23,411 nucleotides of DNA from a virus: positions 1 through 23,411 of the IMG/VR virus record IMGVR_UViG_3300032326_000420; one strand, given 5' to 3'. Position 1 is the stretch's first letter. Every line of letters starts with the position of its first letter. Below are positions 6,340-12,031 of the stretch, one piece after another. A model generated the notes under the pieces. That model saw nothing but the letters and a program-made list of their open reading frames with translations, ran no database searches and was not told where the DNA came from. The translations under genes and the position numbers were made by a program.

Positions 6340-7551
6340 ATGTTCAATACAAGCCCTTTTCCGTCTCCATCACCATTCGCTCAACCGTTTCCTCAAAACG
6401 TATTTGAGTTGAAAAGTGAATTACCATCCTTTGAAAAAAAGGATAATAATTATGTAAATTTTGTAGCGGATCGACAAGGCTGCGGTCAATGGAGAATAGG
6501 TTGGCCCGAATTTCATATCAATATGAATAATTTGGGTGAATCGACTTCTTTGACCAAAATGATCTTTACTAAAGAATGGTATAACGATGTAAAAACCGTC
6601 AAACTTCAAAGACAGGCATCCACGCCACAAAAAGAATTTTTCAAATTCCTCAAAAGCATACAGCAAGAGATGGGATTTAAGATTATTTACGAAATTGATG
6701 ATGTGGTGTTTAAGGAAGAAATACCTGATTATAACTGTTATAAATCTTCATTTGATAATGAAGAAATTCGTCAAAATTGTGTTGAAATGATTAACATGGC
6801 TGATGAAGTCACTGTTACGTGTAAATACATGCGAGATCTCTTTATCGAAAAAACAGGTCAACATAAAATATCAGTAGTTCCTAATTTTCCACCTGAATGG
6901 TGGATTGGTAAATATTATGATTTTAATAAATTGATGCATAATCATCAAAAAAATAGAAAAAAACCCCGAATTTTGTATTCTGGTTCGGGAGCACATTTTG
7001 ATGTGAAAAATGCGACCAATCAACAGGATGATTTTTCCCATGTTATTAAATTTATCGTTGATAATCGACATAAATATCAATTTATTTTCATCGGGTCTTA
7101 CCCACCACCTCTTCATCCATTTATCACTAGTAAAGAAATTGAATATCACTCATGGCAGTCACTGATGAATTATCCTAAATTTATTCAAAGTCTTAACCCG
7201 CAATTATTATTAGCTCCTTTGATGGATATTCCATTCAATAGGTCAAAATCTGATATCAAATATATCGAAGGTGCTTGTTTAGGTATTCCTTGTATGTGTC
7301 AAGATATGGTGACTTATCAAGACGCTCCAGATTTTCTCAAATTTAAAGATTCTGAAGATTTGGCTATGAAGGTTGAATATTTATTGGATTGGAAAAATCG
7401 AAATAAATATTATAAATTAATTCCTGAATTGAGAAAATTGGGCGAATCGAGATTCTTAGAAAGACCCGAAAATATTGGAGCTTTCATGGAAGCGATGAAT
7501 ACGCCATTTGGTGATCCTAGTAGAAAATATTTGAGACCTTGGAATGATTAA
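6340..7551 (+). CDS. Glycosyltransferase, GT-B type (GT1/GT4-like)
   Basis: This 403-aa protein would transfer a sugar from a nucleotide-sugar donor; the acceptor (DNA base, host envelope or virion protein) cannot be told from sequence. The C-terminal half has the pattern of GT-B enzymes: PRILYSGSGAHFD starts the second Rossmann domain, FIFIGSYPP follows, and DIPFNRSKSDIKYIEGACLGIPCM resembles the donor-binding helix with its Glu. The N-terminus is Pro-rich (PFPSPSPFAQPFP). The start at 6340 is chosen over an upstream TTG at 6307 because that TTG lies in the promoter. It ends tail-to-tail with the next minus-strand gene, sharing 4 nt. Phages of this type often carry such enzymes. Confidence 0.75.
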   Translation: MFNTSPFPSPSPFAQPFPQNVFELKSELPSFEKKDNNYVNFVADRQGCGQWRIGWPEFHINMNNLGESTSLTKMIFTKEWYNDVKTVKLQRQASTPQKEFFKFLKSIQQEMGFKIIYEIDDVVFKEEIPDYNCYKSSFDNEEIRQNCVEMINMADEVTVTCKYMRDLFIEKTGQHKISVVPNFPPEWWIGKYYDFNKLMHNHQKNRKKPRILYSGSGAHFDVKNATNQQDDFSHVIKFIVDNRHKYQFIFIGSYPPPLHPFITSKEIEYHSWQSLMNYPKFIQSLNPQLLLAPLMDIPFNRSKSDIKYIEGACLGIPCMCQDMVTYQDAPDFLKFKDSEDLAMKVEYLLDWKNRNKYYKLIPELRKLGESRFLERPENIGAFMEAMNTPFGDPSRKYLRPWND

Positions 7552-7829
7552 TTTCTGGTAAACCCTGAATATTGTTGCAGAGTCGGTCGAAGACGCTCAA
7601 ACATTCCTTTTAAGTTCTCCAGAGGTGTCATGTTTGAAGGATTTTTGAAAAATTCTTCTCTGTTGTTTTGGTAATAAGCTATCGTTCCTTTTATATATTT
7701 TTCAATATATGAAGAAATTTCATTTACCTCACTCTTCATTTTTTCGATGGTTGGATCATAATTATCGTATGATGATTGAAAATCCATACTTTCATAAATC
7801 TTGCTCAAATCTTCGAAATAATTATCCAT
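7548..7829 (-). CDS. Small hypothetical protein with N-terminal LSKIYESM motif
   Basis: The start at 7829 (93 aa) is chosen because GTTAAATA ends exactly 5 nt before it; an in-frame ATG at 7844 would include the box. The protein is helical and charged, with a likely coiled coil in the middle (IEKMKSEVNEISSYIEKYI). Its N-terminal EDLSKIYESM resembles the KLYQSIL and KLYLESV motifs of two other proteins in this window. The function is unknown. It is divergent from repeat copy R1, so it forms the outermost minus-strand member of the repeat array. Confidence 0.65.
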   Translation of the reverse strand: MDNYFEDLSKIYESMDFQSSYDNYDPTIEKMKSEVNEISSYIEKYIKGTIAYYQNNREEFFKNPSNMTPLENLKGMFERLRPTLQQYSGFTRN

Positions 7830-7834
7830 AACAT

Positions 7835-7842
7835 TATTTAAC
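7835..7842 (-). promoter_or_regulatory. Candidate late promoter box (GTTAAATA)
   Basis: GTTAAATA on the minus strand, then ATGTT, then the ATG at 7829. It has the same 5-nt spacing as other late-type boxes here. Confidence 0.4.
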
Positions 7843-7848
7843 ATATAA

Positions 7849-7881: not shown

Positions 7882-7980
7882 ATGTCTAATAATATCCAAA
7901 ACAACGATAAGCACATCCACGGCGATGTGCAAGACCCGAATGTAACAGAAGCAACTACGCCGTTGGATGATGCGTCTTGT
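7882..7980 (+). repeat. Repeat copy R1
   Basis: First of four roughly 100-nt direct repeats that begin with a start codon. It contains a 7-bp hairpin (7911-7917 with 7924-7930, loop CACGGC), a 6-bp outer pairing CAAGAC/GTCTTG (7930-7935 with 7974-7979) and an inner CAAC/GTTG stem (7952-7955 with 7962-7965). Confidence 0.9.
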
Positions 7981-7983
7981 TAG
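7882..7983 (+). CDS. 33-aa ORF encoded by R1
   Basis: The repeat is read as MSNNIQNNDKHIHGDV followed by QDPNVTEATTPLDDASC, and then a TAG stops it. In R2 and R3 the same peptide continues into longer proteins. It may be a short peptide, a leader, or just the coding shadow of a structured repeat. Confidence 0.3.
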   Translation: MSNNIQNNDKHIHGDVQDPNVTEATTPLDDASC

Positions 7984-8003
7984 CTTGATTTTTAAGATGG
8001 TAT

Positions 8004-8011
8004 GATAAATA
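8004..8011 (+). promoter_or_regulatory. Candidate late promoter box (GATAAATA)
   Basis: GATAAATA, then AAGAC, then the ATG at 8017: the same box-5-nt-ATG geometry as the minus-strand late genes, here on the plus strand. Confidence 0.4.
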
Positions 8012-8016
8012 AAGAC

Positions 8017-8244
8017 ATGGAATACAATATATGGATAGAACCCGATTCTTCGAGTGGTGATAATTATCTTAAATTCTCTGGAAAAGTTGCTCTTAATGAT
8101 AAAAATATAGAATGGTTACTAGCAATAATAAAAAAGGTTTCGAATAGGGAAATAAATTACGTCAATCCTCTATTTTCTTCAGATCCAACAAGCAATTCTG
8201 AAATATCTCTTGGACTTCTTCCAATCTCGAAGTCCTCAGAATAA
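8017..8244 (+). CDS. Small hypothetical protein in cassette R1-R2
   Basis: 75 aa from the ATG at 8017, chosen because of the box ending 5 nt upstream (an ATG at 8002 lies ahead of it). It has no recognisable domain; it starts MEYNIWIEPDSSSGDNY and has one likely helix (NIEWLLAIIKKV). Unlike the plus-strand genes after R2 and R3, it is not fused to the repeat peptide. Its 3' end overlaps the convergent minus-strand gene by 83 nt, so one of the two may not be real. Confidence 0.42.
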   Translation: MEYNIWIEPDSSSGDNYLKFSGKVALNDKNIEWLLAIIKKVSNREINYVNPLFSSDPTSNSEISLGLLPISKSSE

Positions 8245-8365
8245 TTTTATCATCACAAGATACTGCAACTAGAAGTGAATCGGTAGATAGAAGATTTGGA
8301 TTGGTCTTCATTGCTTCATCTCTGGTCATCGTCTTGGTGTTATTGATATTAAATTCTATCTTCAT
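8162..8365 (-). CDS. Small hypothetical protein in cassette R1-R2
   Basis: 67 aa, starting MKIEFNINNTKTMTRDEAMK, with a mixed strand/helix look and a C-terminal EEVQEIFQNCLLDLKK helix. It is not recognised. It starts 33 nt from the R2 start codon in divergent orientation, repeating the layout seen at R1, R3 and R4. No clear late box is seen upstream, unlike its neighbours. Confidence 0.45.
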   Translation of the reverse strand: MKIEFNINNTKTMTRDEAMKTNPNLLSTDSLLVAVSCDDKIILRTSRLEEVQEIFQNCLLDLKKIED

Positions 8366-8366
8366 A

Positions 8367-8393
8367 TTGACTTTCTAATTTTGGAAGTAAGTA
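8367..8393 (+). promoter_or_regulatory. Weak sigma70-like promoter in front of R2
   Basis: TTGACT (8367-8372), 15-nt spacer, TAAGTA (8388-8393), 5 nt to the ATG at 8399. The -35 block is shared with R1 but the -10 is poor. Confidence 0.3.
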
Positions 8394-8398
8394 GGAAC

Positions 8399-8499
8399 AT
8401 GGTAAATAATATCTCAGCTAACGTAGAGCACATCCACGGTGATGTGCAAGCCACTAATGTAACAGAAGCAACTACGCCGTTGGATGATGCGGCTTGTTG
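8399..8499 (+). repeat. Repeat copy R2
   Basis: Second copy. The hairpin is at 8428-8434 with 8441-8447 (loop CACGGT); the outer pairing is CAAGCC/GGCTTG (8447-8452 with 8491-8496), a pair change relative to R1. The first 30 nt differ more from the other copies than the structured core does. Confidence 0.9.
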
Positions 8500-8638
8500 T
8501 GCTTCGGATTTTGTGTTGGAGATTTATGAACGGGCAAAGTATCAGAGGAAATTAGCCGAAGAATCATACTCAAATACGATGAAAGCACTTCAAAAAATCA
8601 TTGATGATTGTGAGAAATCATTGCGTGATAGGCAGTAA
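8399..8638 (+). CDS. Repeat-fused small protein (R2)
   Basis: 79 aa. The first 36 or so residues are encoded by repeat R2 (HIHGDVQ..NVTEATTPLDDAACCAS) and the rest is unique: EIYERAKYQRKLAEESYSN and a charged helix ending KSLRDRQ, likely a coiled coil. A TTG at 8381 is an alternative start. Nothing in it is recognised. Its end overlaps the convergent minus-strand gene by 41 nt. The shared N-terminus with the R3 protein but different C-terminus points to a modular, cassette-like construction. Confidence 0.55.
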   Translation: MVNNISANVEHIHGDVQATNVTEATTPLDDAACCASDFVLEIYERAKYQRKLAEESYSNTMKALQKIIDDCEKSLRDRQ

Positions 8639-8849
8639 TAACTCTAGGACGTTGTTCCTCAATTTGCTTTTGGGTATTGTCTATCTCGGATAAATATTCC
8701 TTATACCTATTGAATCTGATATTCTGTTCCATTCCATTAAAATTTGTATCGAGAAATGATGACGCTTCAGATAATTTTCGGTAGTATGTGTTTAGTGTGT
8801 TAAACTCCGATTTAAAAATATCTTCGGGTGTTGGTGAATCTTCGTTCAT
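8598..8849 (-). CDS. Small coiled-coil hypothetical (MNE family)
   Basis: 83 aa, starting MNEDSPTPEDIF, with an IRFNRYKEYLSEID segment in a helical, probably coiled-coil protein. It resembles the next minus-strand gene (MNEES..., VRLNRFNAELLELR), so the two may be distant paralogues. It starts divergently 37 nt from R3. GCAAATA on the minus strand ends 7 nt before its ATG. Confidence 0.55.
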   Translation of the reverse strand: MNEDSPTPEDIFKSEFNTLNTYYRKLSEASSFLDTNFNGMEQNIRFNRYKEYLSEIDNTQKQIEEQRPRVITAYHAMISHNHQ

Positions 8850-8897
8850 GGCTTGCTATTTGCACTGTCGATGATAAATAAACAACATGTCTAATAA
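8839..8897. repeat. 59-nt perfect repeat, copy A (divergent promoter block)
   Basis: Identical over 59 nt to 9323-9381. It holds the start of a minus-strand MNE gene, a minus-strand GCAAATA, a plus-strand GATAAATA and the start of the R repeat. Confidence 0.9.
8857..8880. promoter_or_regulatory. Divergent pair of late-type boxes at R3
   Basis: GCAAATA on the minus strand (8863 to 8857) ends 7 nt before the ATG at 8849. GATAAATA on the plus strand (8873-8880) ends 6 nt before the ATG at 8887. Confidence 0.4.
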
Positions 8898-8986
8898 ATT
8901 TCAAAACAACGATAAGCACATCCACGGTGATGTGCAAGACCCGAATGTAACAGAAGCAACTACGCCGTTGGATGATGCGGCTTGTT
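8887..8986 (+). repeat. Repeat copy R3
   Basis: Third copy. The hairpin is at 8916-8922 with 8929-8935; the outer pairing CAAGAC/GGCTTG (8935-8940 with 8979-8984) has one A-G mismatch, an intermediate between R1 and R2. Confidence 0.9.
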
Positions 8987-9171
8987 GTGCTTCTTTGTTT
9001 GTTGAAGGTGTGTGCGTTGAAAGTTCTAGATTCCCACATTGGATTGGGAAAACCGCAGATCAAATTCTTGATATTATAGAAGATGGTGTGCAAGAAATTG
9101 CAAGTCGTCGCGGGGTTTCACTTCATCGATTTGAGAATCGTGATCTCGCGCTCAACGAACTCGATGCGTGA
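8887..9171 (+). CDS. Repeat-fused small protein (R3)
   Basis: 94 aa. The first 36 residues or so come from repeat R3 (ending DDAACCAS), then a unique part: LFVEGVCVESSRFPHWIG, then TADQILDIIEDGVQEIASRR and a polar C-terminus. No domain is recognised. Cysteines cluster at the junction (AACCAS, GVCVES). The gene overlaps the convergent minus-strand gene by 54 nt at its 3' end. Confidence 0.55.
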   Translation: MSNKFQNNDKHIHGDVQDPNVTEATTPLDDAACCASLFVEGVCVESSRFPHWIGKTADQILDIIEDGVQEIASRRGVSLHRFENRDLALNELDA

Positions 9172-9333
9172 TAATACCTCGTTCGAAGGATTTGGTATCA
9201 ACCTTAATTCGAGTAATTCGGCATTAAATCTGTTCAATCTTACTTCATCTTGTGATGAAGCACCGCCTTCCAATTTAGATAAGTTTGCGACAAGCTCATC
9301 CATAGTATCTATTTTTTCTGATTCTTCGTTCAT
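9118..9333 (-). CDS. Small coiled-coil hypothetical (MNE family)
   Basis: 71 aa, starting MNEESEKIDTMDELV, with EVRLNRFNAELLELR and a C-terminal helix RIEFVEREITILKS. It is probably related to 8598-8849. Its first codons and upstream region are part of the 59-nt perfect repeat. It is divergent from R4, 37 nt away. Confidence 0.55.
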   Translation of the reverse strand: MNEESEKIDTMDELVANLSKLEGGASSQDEVRLNRFNAELLELRLIPNPSNEVLSRIEFVEREITILKSMK

Positions 9334-9381
9334 GGCTTGCTATTTGCACTGTCGATGATAAATAAACAACATGTCTAATAA
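9323..9381. repeat. 59-nt perfect repeat, copy B (divergent promoter block)
   Basis: Identical to 8839-8897, shifted by 484 nt. It includes minus-strand GCAAATA (9347 to 9341) and plus-strand GATAAATA (9357-9364), the latter 6 nt before the R4 ATG. Confidence 0.9.
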
Positions 9382-9421
9382 TATCCAAAACAACGATAAG
9401 CACATCCACGGCGATGTGTAA
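9371..9421 (+). pseudogene. Truncated repeat ORF in R4
   Basis: The repeat frame is read for only 16 codons (MSNNIQNNDKHIHGDV) because CAA has become TAA. The downstream part of the repeat is intact at the nucleotide level, but there is no fused gene: gene 43 follows. Confidence 0.45.
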
Positions 9422-9471
9422 GCCACTAATGTAACAGAAGCAACTACGCCGTTGGATGATGCGGCTTGTTG
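9371..9471 (+). repeat. Repeat copy R4, abutting the gene 43 promoter
   Basis: Fourth copy. The hairpin is at 9400-9406 with 9413-9419; the last base is T instead of C, keeping a G-U pair. The outer pairing is TAAGCC/GGCTTG (9419-9424 with 9463-9468). The repeat end merges into the TTGACA of the polymerase promoter. Confidence 0.9.
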
Positions 9472-9496
9472 ACATTCATGATGTTTGTGCTATACT
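9469..9496 (+). promoter_or_regulatory. Sigma70-like promoter for gene 43, leaderless geometry
   Basis: TTGACA (9469-9474), 16-nt spacer, TATACT (9491-9496), 6 nt, then the ATG at 9503. The predicted +1 is the A of the start codon. The -35 and spacer (TTGACATTCATGATGTTTGT) are nearly the same as at 16852. Confidence 0.65.
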
Positions 9497-9502
9497 CGAT
9501 TC

Positions 9503-12031
9503 ATGTCTTATAGAAATTGTGTGTATAACAACCGCGAAAAAAAGATTTTTTTGTGGACTTGGAATGAGAATGGTGAGAGGATTAAAGAGGAATGGGATTT
9601 CAAGCCATACATTTTATTAGAAGATAAAAATGGCGATGAAAAATCTATTTACGGCACCAAATTAAAGAAAAGGGAATTCGATAGTGGTTATGATCGTAAT
9701 CAATTTATAAAAGATAGTAATATCAAAAGAATTTACGAGAATCTGCCACCTTACCAACAATTTCTAATTGACAATTATTGGTCTGTGTGTGAAAACGACG
9801 AATTCTCGCGATATCCCCTGAAGGTTGCTTATTTAGACTTGGAAAATCCAAAAGCAGATGGGTTTCCTGATCCTGTATTAGCAGATTCGGTTATCAACTT
9901 AATAACTTGTTACGATTCTTTTAGTAAAATATATCACGTATTTGGTTTGAAAAATTATCATACTACTAGAGATGATGTGAAGTATTATTGGTGTAAATCT
10001 GAACATGATTTGTTGAAATCTTTTATCAAATTCTTTAGAAAAGAAGAGTTTGATGTCATCACATCATGGAACGGTGCAGCATATGATATACCTACATTGG
10101 TCAACCGCATCACTTTTGAATTGGGTAAAGAATGGGCTGATAAATTATCCCCAATTGGAAGGATTTACGAGAAGACTAATCCTACTGGTAAATTTGGTAT
10201 GCCCACAAAAGAATACGTCATTGAGGGTATTTCATCTTTAGACTATTATGTGATTTATCAAAAATTCAATTTGGAAAAGCAAGAGTCTTACAAATTGGAT
10301 AACATAGGACAAGTTGAATTAGGTATTAACAAAATTCAACACGAGGGTAATTTATGGGACCTTTCAAAAAATGATTGGCATACATACACTGATTACAACA
10401 TAAGAGACGTTGAAATTCTTGTAAAATTGGAAGAGAAAAAAGGTTACATTTCGTTGTTACGATTTCTCGCGTATACAGGATTATGTGATTTAGAAAATGC
10501 CATTAAGACAGTCCCCCCTATGAATGGTGCCATCGCCATACGTGCGCGTATGCGGGGTGAATATATTCCTACTTTTATACGCCCAGTCACCGACTACAAA
10601 GCACCTGGAGGTTATGTTGCAGAGCCACGAATCGGATTCGCAGAGGATATTGTATCATTTGATGCTAACTCACTATACCCATCTGTAATGATATCTTTAA
10701 ATTTATCACCAGAAACTAAAATCGGCAGGGTTGAAAGAGTCAATGGTATCATAAAAATACACCATACATCAGGTAGGATATTTGAAATGTCTCCTGAAAA
10801 TTTTAAAAAGTTTATCGCAGAAGAAAAAGCATCGTTGACAAAGGCTGGCTTTTTGTTTTCCCAGAAAAAAGTTGGTTTGGTTCCAGAATTTTTGGATAAC
10901 TTATACACCAAACGTAAAGAGATGAAAAGCAAAATGTTGGATTCTCGAAAAAATGGTGATAAAGAGGGTGAGCAAAAATTCGACACGATCCAATATGCTT
11001 ATAAAATTCACCTCAACTCTTTATATGGTTACATGCTCAATAAATACGCCCCTATGGGTGATGAGGATATCGGGACATCTGTTACACTGACTGGTCAAGC
11101 TGTGATTAAAAAGAGTAACGAGTTGTTCTTAGAATATATGTCACAGAAACTTGATACTACGGATGGTATTGAAAAATCATTGATCTACAATGATACTGAC
11201 GCTTTATATGTCTCGTTGAGTATGTTGAAAGCTAAAGGTTTGGTGTTGAAAGATGGTAATAAAGTGTCGGCAGAATTTTACAAAGAATGTCAAGATATTG
11301 AAAACCATATTAATAGTGGTATCAACGAATGGGCCATCAAGAGTCTGAGAAGTAATGATCCCAGATTTGTATTCAAACGCGAATCTATTTGCGATTGCGG
11401 TATTTTTATTGGTAAAAAATATTATGTCCTGCACACGCTCGATGAAGAAGGTGTCGTGGTTGATAAATTTAAATATAAAGGAGTTGACGTAGTTAAGACC
11501 ACCATGCCAAAAAAGGTCAAACCATATGTTAAGAAAGTCATTGAGCATATGATTCTCACTCAATCACTTAAAGAGACCAATGATATCTTCAAAGAAGCAT
11601 ACGAACAATTCAAAAAATTACCAATCGAAGAAATTGCAAAAATCTCGGGAATGAACAATTATGCTAATTATTCGTCTAAATGTAATGGTATGACAACTGT
11701 CAAGGGAATGCCATCGCATTTAAAAGCTGCATATTATCATGATTTCATTTTAGATAAGAATGGGTGGACATCGAAATATGATAAGTTTAAAACAGGTGAT
11801 AAGATTAAGATGGTATATGTTCAAAAACCGAATAAATACGACCTATCCATGATTGGATTTAAAGAATTTTGGATGCCCGAATTTGATACTATATTTAAAG
11901 TTGATCACGAGAAAATGTTTGGTAAGATATTTTATGCTGCTATTGAAAGATTCTATAATGCTGTTGGTTGGAATTTGAGAAAACCTAATGAAAATTTAGT
12001 TGTTGAAATTGAGGATATTTTTGGAGAATGA
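9503..12031 (+). CDS. 43: Family B DNA polymerase gp43
   Basis: This 842-aa replicative polymerase with 3'-5' proofreading is somewhat shorter than T4 gp43 (898 aa). Exonuclease motifs: YLDLE (D112, E114), NGAAYD (N190, D195) and YNIRD (Y298, D302). Polymerase motifs: A, FDANSLYPS (D387); B, KIHLNSLYG (K501 to G509); C, YNDTDA (D564, D566). Motif C has Ala where family B enzymes nearly always have Ser (DTDS). The C-terminus VEIEDIFGE resembles the short hydrophobic tail by which T4-type polymerases bind the clamp. The start at 9503 is fixed by promoter geometry; an in-frame TTG at 9485 lies in the promoter spacer. Confidence 0.97.
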   Translation: MSYRNCVYNNREKKIFLWTWNENGERIKEEWDFKPYILLEDKNGDEKSIYGTKLKKREFDSGYDRNQFIKDSNIKRIYENLPPYQQFLIDNYWSVCENDEFSRYPLKVAYLDLENPKADGFPDPVLADSVINLITCYDSFSKIYHVFGLKNYHTTRDDVKYYWCKSEHDLLKSFIKFFRKEEFDVITSWNGAAYDIPTLVNRITFELGKEWADKLSPIGRIYEKTNPTGKFGMPTKEYVIEGISSLDYYVIYQKFNLEKQESYKLDNIGQVELGINKIQHEGNLWDLSKNDWHTYTDYNIRDVEILVKLEEKKGYISLLRFLAYTGLCDLENAIKTVPPMNGAIAIRARMRGEYIPTFIRPVTDYKAPGGYVAEPRIGFAEDIVSFDANSLYPSVMISLNLSPETKIGRVERVNGIIKIHHTSGRIFEMSPENFKKFIAEEKASLTKAGFLFSQKKVGLVPEFLDNLYTKRKEMKSKMLDSRKNGDKEGEQKFDTIQYAYKIHLNSLYGYMLNKYAPMGDEDIGTSVTLTGQAVIKKSNELFLEYMSQKLDTTDGIEKSLIYNDTDALYVSLSMLKAKGLVLKDGNKVSAEFYKECQDIENHINSGINEWAIKSLRSNDPRFVFKRESICDCGIFIGKKYYVLHTLDEEGVVVDKFKYKGVDVVKTTMPKKVKPYVKKVIEHMILTQSLKETNDIFKEAYEQFKKLPIEEIAKISGMNNYANYSSKCNGMTTVKGMPSHLKAAYYHDFILDKNGWTSKYDKFKTGDKIKMVYVQKPNKYDLSMIGFKEFWMPEFDTIFKVDHEKMFGKIFYAAIERFYNAVGWNLRKPNENLVVEIEDIFGE

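Follow-up and report, generated by a model that had tools for sequence, protein, structure and literature searches.

An integron cassette opens with the end of an R' box, and the complement of these bases sits in the R'' box at its other end. PeSLs, reportedly described by Arbiol and colleagues in 2010, are repeated stem-loops with promoters that shuffle modules in T4-type genomes; they are not known to be attC sites or to have R boxes or cassette logic. Clusters of integron gene cassettes without an integrase (CALINs), with attC sites working with IntI1, have been reported in phages (Qi et al. 2023, PMC9892861). The locus described here has in common with those phage CALINs the tandem attC sites and cassettes in phage genomes, including virulent ones, and the lack of an integrase, whereas its carriers are uncultivated T4-type phages, its sites are of a verrucomicrobial type, and the occupancy of its port (0, 1 or 3 cassettes) can be compared among close relatives. 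Phage CALINs as such are already known; as far as our searches reach, the T4-type carriers, the site type, the comparable ports and the recurrence in unrelated phages are new. With the sedentary chromosomal integrons of Verrucomicrobiota the locus shares attC family, cassette length, ORF orientation and R-box logic, but those bacteria encode IntI and the phage contigs do not, and the cassette gene mC was absent from the 240 Verrucomicrobiota genomes searched. The sequence and structure of attC sites have been used to infer cassette origin, with models for 11 taxa (Ghaly et al. 2021, PMC8352920); Verrucomicrobiota is not in the list of taxa shown there, and the verrucomicrobial source proposed here comes from the present analysis.

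The window (the whole stretch of 23,411 nt that was analysed) is a 23.4-kb fragment of an uncultivated T4-type phage. PHROGs matches within it included a gene 43-type polymerase, a UvsX-like recombinase, a DnaB-like helicase, SbcC/SbcD-like nuclease subunits at the gp46/gp47 position, a late sigma factor and a DNA helicase; the best matches of the polymerase among public phage records were only about 30% identical. Next to the polymerase gene (9503..12031, plus strand; phrog_262, E = 1.2e-178) lie four copies of a repeat, which a first-pass annotation had placed at 7882, 8399, 8887 and 9371 with spacings of 517, 488 and 484 nt, and these positions were confirmed. All copies, R1 to R4, were detected by nhmmer at an E value of 1e-43 or better; their conserved core was 81 nt, with 3-10 differences between pairs. 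The repeat unit is an imperfect palindrome of about 87 nt that can be folded into an attC hairpin, not a peptide, and both of its ends run on into R boxes. Every interval between copies holds a small minus-strand gene, and a native 98-aa gene (mA, 7548..7844, minus strand), also present in relatives without the array, borders the far side.

The hairpin consists of AAC/GTT ends, 5-nt unpaired spacers, an L stem whose L'' arm carries two extra bases (in the orientation defined by the ORFs) and a variable loop, which differed among copies in both sequence and length. These parts match published descriptions of attC sites, namely AAC/GTT ends, spacers, an L stem with extrahelical bases and a variable terminal structure (PMC8946536, PMC8352920). 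A covariation count on six near-identical copies had no power, and remote homologs settled the question: a covariance model built from these six found two copies each in the phage contigs G025, G026 and G032, where the stem was preserved through paired changes and the loop differed in sequence and length. Over 46 distinct copies, 91% of the pair cells of the 23-pair structure were paired and 18 of the 23 pairs changed on both sides; the covariation score was 0.284, compared with 0.085 ± 0.007 in shuffles and at most 0.076 in slid controls. Among 115 distinct bacterial copies, 22 of 23 pairs changed on both sides, with a score of 0.322 (control, 0.091). The alignments (A7 and A8) were fitted to the model and lean towards it; the slid controls share the alignment and scored far lower. 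The AAC/GTT pairs were kept in nearly all copies, and pairs proposed within the spacer mostly failed. An alternative fold into two local hairpins per copy was absent from distant copies and was rejected. Covariation far above the controls, together with the match in parts, indicates that the four repeats are, by sequence and predicted fold, integron attC sites of the verrucomicrobial type.

In 13 of 14 bacterial cassettes the longest ORF lay on the strand opposite to the one modelled first (sign test, P = 0.002), the same orientation as that of the window's small genes mB, mC and mD, and on the ORF-defined strand the extra bases fell on the L'' arm, as expected of attC. Both observations speak against the plus strand as the cassette strand. 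They indicate that the cassettes of the window are read on the minus strand, which makes the plus strand, the one modelled, the recombinogenic bottom strand. Cassette boundaries were placed by the G^TT rule, all on the minus strand. Cassette D (484 nt, 8910..9393) would comprise mD (71 aa, 9118..9333), whose ATG lies 60 nt into the cassette, and attC R3 at its end (8904..8990; CM match 8907-8987, 111 bits). Cassette C (488 nt, 8422..8909) would comprise mC (83 aa, 8598..8849) and attC R2 (8416..8502; CM match 8419-8499, 104 bits; R' box GTTAGCT), and cassette B (517 nt, 7905..8421) would comprise mB (67 aa, 8162..8365) and attC R1 (7899..7985; CM match 7902-7982, 108 bits). The fourth site, attC R4 (9388..9474, minus strand; CM match 9391-9471, 110 bits; supported by structure and covariation), has the boxes TGTCAAC (R'') and GTTGTTT (R'), is orthologous to site S2 in L005, and is the resident or landing site adjoining the polymerase promoter. 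The three cassettes lie downstream of this resident attC and are divergent from the polymerase. With at least two tandem attC sites and no integrase nearby, the array is a CALIN.

Each cassette carried one ORF, which started 56-60 nt into the cassette and read towards the attC, and the small genes are presumably expressed from these leaders of their own. All three are orphans: searches with mB, mC and mD gave no match in PHROGs or PADLOC and none over the cut-off in Pfam, mC and mD showed no similarity to each other by BLASTP, and mB had no relative among the viral contigs. Searches for relatives of the cassette genes gave nothing convincing, and no cassette was traced to a bacterial array.

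In many adjacent pairs the R boxes followed the cassette logic. The outer four bases of the R'' box and of the cassette start matched fully in 21 of 42 adjacent site pairs; 10,000 shuffles gave 2.9 full matches on average and 10 at most, and matching inside a single site was rare (4/94). Perfect matches over seven bases were found in cassette B (GTTAGCT/AGCTAAC), where the R'' box of R1 is the exact complement of the opening bases, and in the cassettes of L005 (GTTGTGC/GCACAAC) and G025 (GTTCGGC/GCCGAAC). In G025 the two outer halves also matched each other (ACACAAC/GTTGTGT), as expected from one insertion splitting one resident attC. The R' boxes GTTGTTT, GTTAGCT and GTTGTGC fit the textbook GTTRRRY only loosely, and so do those of their bacterial counterparts of the same type. 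Cassettes C and D had only a 2/4 R-box match, and R4 had no matching partner. The leaders (first 60 bp) of cassettes C and D were nearly identical and resembled the far flank of the L005 site; homologous recombination probably overwrote them. The mosaic of GACCCG or GCCACT with GGC or GGT that the first-pass annotation had described is real and lies in or beside the hairpin loop. Its reading of this pattern as recombination between copies still gives the most fitting account, in that ordinary homologous recombination between copies would best explain both the loop mosaic and the near-identical leaders.

The HIHGDVQ form of the repeat occurred in only one other IMG/VR contig (IMGVR_UViG_3300032323_002909, 150 kb), which had two copies and a polymerase 92% identical to that of the window. 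In about 25 further relatives, with polymerases 74-92% identical, the repeat was absent from the stretches examined, and the content of the interval between the glycosyltransferase and polymerase genes differed widely. Comparison of this interval bore out the earlier suggestion of a recombining cassette locus: copy number was not fixed, and sister phages held 0, 2 or 4 sites (0, 1 or 3 cassettes at the same spot) with different cassette content. Four attC sites were found in the window, two in L005 and two in each of G025, G026 and G032. The interval is hypervariable beyond the cassettes. In some relatives it held a 467-aa gene instead (L009:1942-3345), and L021 has there a gene with 34% identity to a virion structural protein (phrog_1645) of L129. 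The polymerase match in a 184-kb phage contig (L030:6001-9549, L073:501-4049) spanned about 3.5 kb, not 2.5 kb. The extra length suggests that about 1 kb was inserted, for instance an intron, an intein or a homing gene.

Both R4 and its ortholog S2 terminate in GTTGACA, within which TTGACA forms the -35 box of the polymerase promoter (TTGACA-N16-TATACT, 9469..9496, plus strand); the TT of this box is shared with the GTT at the end of the R4 hairpin. The same promoter layout was present in several relatives that lack the array, indicating that insertion leaves the promoter intact. In the window (9469-9503) the polymerase ATG lies six bases after the -10 box TATACT, a layout shared by the same region of L009, L012, L016, L020, L029 and L030, and the polymerase mRNA may be leaderless.

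A second port was found in another T4-type group, where two attC sites and one cassette lie between a gp41-type helicase gene and a conserved downstream gene (L095:4121-4757 in G025, L094 in G032, L096 in G026, and L100, L105 and L108). The gapped stem pattern matched 38 viral contigs, 36 of which were confirmed by the model or held known copies, and some 30 other viral contigs, several of which had clear phage genes, carried related attC sites. Some of the attC-bearing contigs were unrelated, non-T4 phages with terminase, tape measure and DNA polymerase genes. Single or tandem sites of the same type were seen in other phage contigs among L098-L134 (for example L103:7249-7957, L116:1605-2576, L132:430-2864 and L098:2513-4799). 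A 32-bit CM match in G005 (145119-145201; L039, L097:7120-7202) was without the AAC end and was not counted; it sits at the start of a gene for a small CxxC protein and is either a degenerate attC or chance. Weak matches in Synechococcus phages spanned a gene junction and were attributed to chance.

Among bacterial genomes the stem pattern matched at least 117 stretches, and about 63 of the 80 loci among the matches listed were in Verrucomicrobiota. Of 13 Verrucomicrobiota genomes that carry these sites, 11 had a match to the IntI model TIGR02249 above its threshold. A site of the verrucomicrobial type was also present within each of four integrase loci of roughly 4 kb. By contrast, TIGR02249 had no match in eight phage contigs, all of them fragments (the window, G001, G025, G026, G032 and G054-G056). 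A complete integron has an intI gene and an attI site; no intI was found in the phage contigs. Of 17 non-verrucomicrobial genomes with the bare pattern, 16 had no CM match. The exception was a Sulfurovum MAG, one contig of which (L270, G307:C1:59240-59322) held an attC of the verrucomicrobial type, either through a binning error or through cross-phylum cassette transfer. Since the site type occurs in Verrucomicrobiota together with IntI and is nearly absent from the 17 non-verrucomicrobial genomes with the bare pattern, the host of the phage is most likely a verrucomicrobium, as judged from site type.

We conclude, with a probability of about 0.92, that this T4-type phage carries a CALIN, into which a host IntI most likely inserted cassettes at the G^TT of a resident attC. 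The integrase would act in trans. The starting site would be the resident attC directly beside the polymerase promoter, whose folded, single-stranded bottom strand host IntI most likely recognises during phage replication. Circular cassettes would then be inserted at the G^TT, each adding one gene and one attC that read divergently from the polymerase, and host IntI would also remove cassettes there.

It is unlikely, though the case deserves weight, that homologous recombination, with IntI not acting on phage DNA, imported the array as a unit from a bacterial integron or another phage, or passed it from phage to phage. Such routes are considered for phage CALINs by the authors of PMC9892861, and the almost complete identity of cassettes C and D over their first 60 bp points to at least one homologous exchange. 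However, phages with the same resident site and junction carried different cassettes exactly at the G^TT, with full R-box matches, which is the signature of IntI.

A structured RNA element, such as a regulatory leader or processing site upstream of the small genes and copied with them, is very improbable. The strong fold and the covariation would suit such an element, but the polymerase promoter begins at the very end of R4 and leaves this copy outside the transcript from that promoter; complementarity of neighbouring sites across a cassette is meaningless for RNA, there was no Rfam match above the cut-off, and bacteria that encode IntI carry arrays of the same sites.

The chances are equally slight that the repeat encodes a conserved leader peptide, such as a signal for capsid targeting, which was joined to unrelated small phage proteins and spread by gene duplication. 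The reading frames themselves were as first described: on the plus strand, the R1 frame stopped after 33 codons (7882..7983; probably no gene, the frame not being conserved) and the R4 frame after 16, at a TAA (9371..9421), and those of R2 (8399..8638, 79 aa) and R3 (8887..9171, 94 aa) continued into C-termini unrelated to each other. Third-base changes in the core were synonymous in R1, R2, R3 and S1, and R2, R3, S1 and copy A of G025 continued into longer ORFs; shuffles of synonymous codons gave a mixed result. Against this, R4 and S2 had no usable frame yet kept the hairpin, the hairpin covaried, and distant copies retained it as the frame shifted, as in the G025-type copies, where the 5' half of the HIHGDVQ frame was shifted. 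Of 91 bacterial copies, 89 were closed in this frame, two were open and none encoded HIHGDV, and the leader peptide had no convincing database match in phages. With the reading frame not conserved across homologs, the peptide is refuted as the origin of the repeat. Reading through attC in the antisense direction yields the HIHGDVQ ORFs, and those of R2 and R3 are antisense to the attC and its cassette. The initial proposal that the repeat seeds the N-termini of genes was therefore wrong: the shared peptide arises incidentally when the bottom strand of attC is read, the hairpin was kept in G025-type phages where the frame was not, and the cassette genes lie on the opposite strand. A PeSL-type system of mobile regulatory stem-loop cassettes, shuffled within T4-type phages, would account for the phage type, the stem-loop beside a promoter and the modular gene content, but is hardly credible for a hairpin that has attC boxes and belongs to a family also found in bacterial integrons and in unrelated, non-T4 phages.

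Read as integron cassettes at a resident attC, the array connects lytic T4-type phages with the integron gene pool of a phylum that has little-known phages, and the phage appears to have acquired genes from a bacterial gene-exchange system. A host prediction is gained for an uncultivated phage group, and the locus allows cassette gain and loss to be compared between close relatives. The attC sites in about 30 other viral contigs suggest that phages may be a regular vehicle for these cassettes. More tentatively, at less than even odds, the phage lineage may keep the resident attC as a standing docking port, drawing in every infection on the IntI of a verrucomicrobial host to sample that host's pool of cassettes; if so, the cassettes in the phage population would be replaced much more quickly than the core genome evolves.
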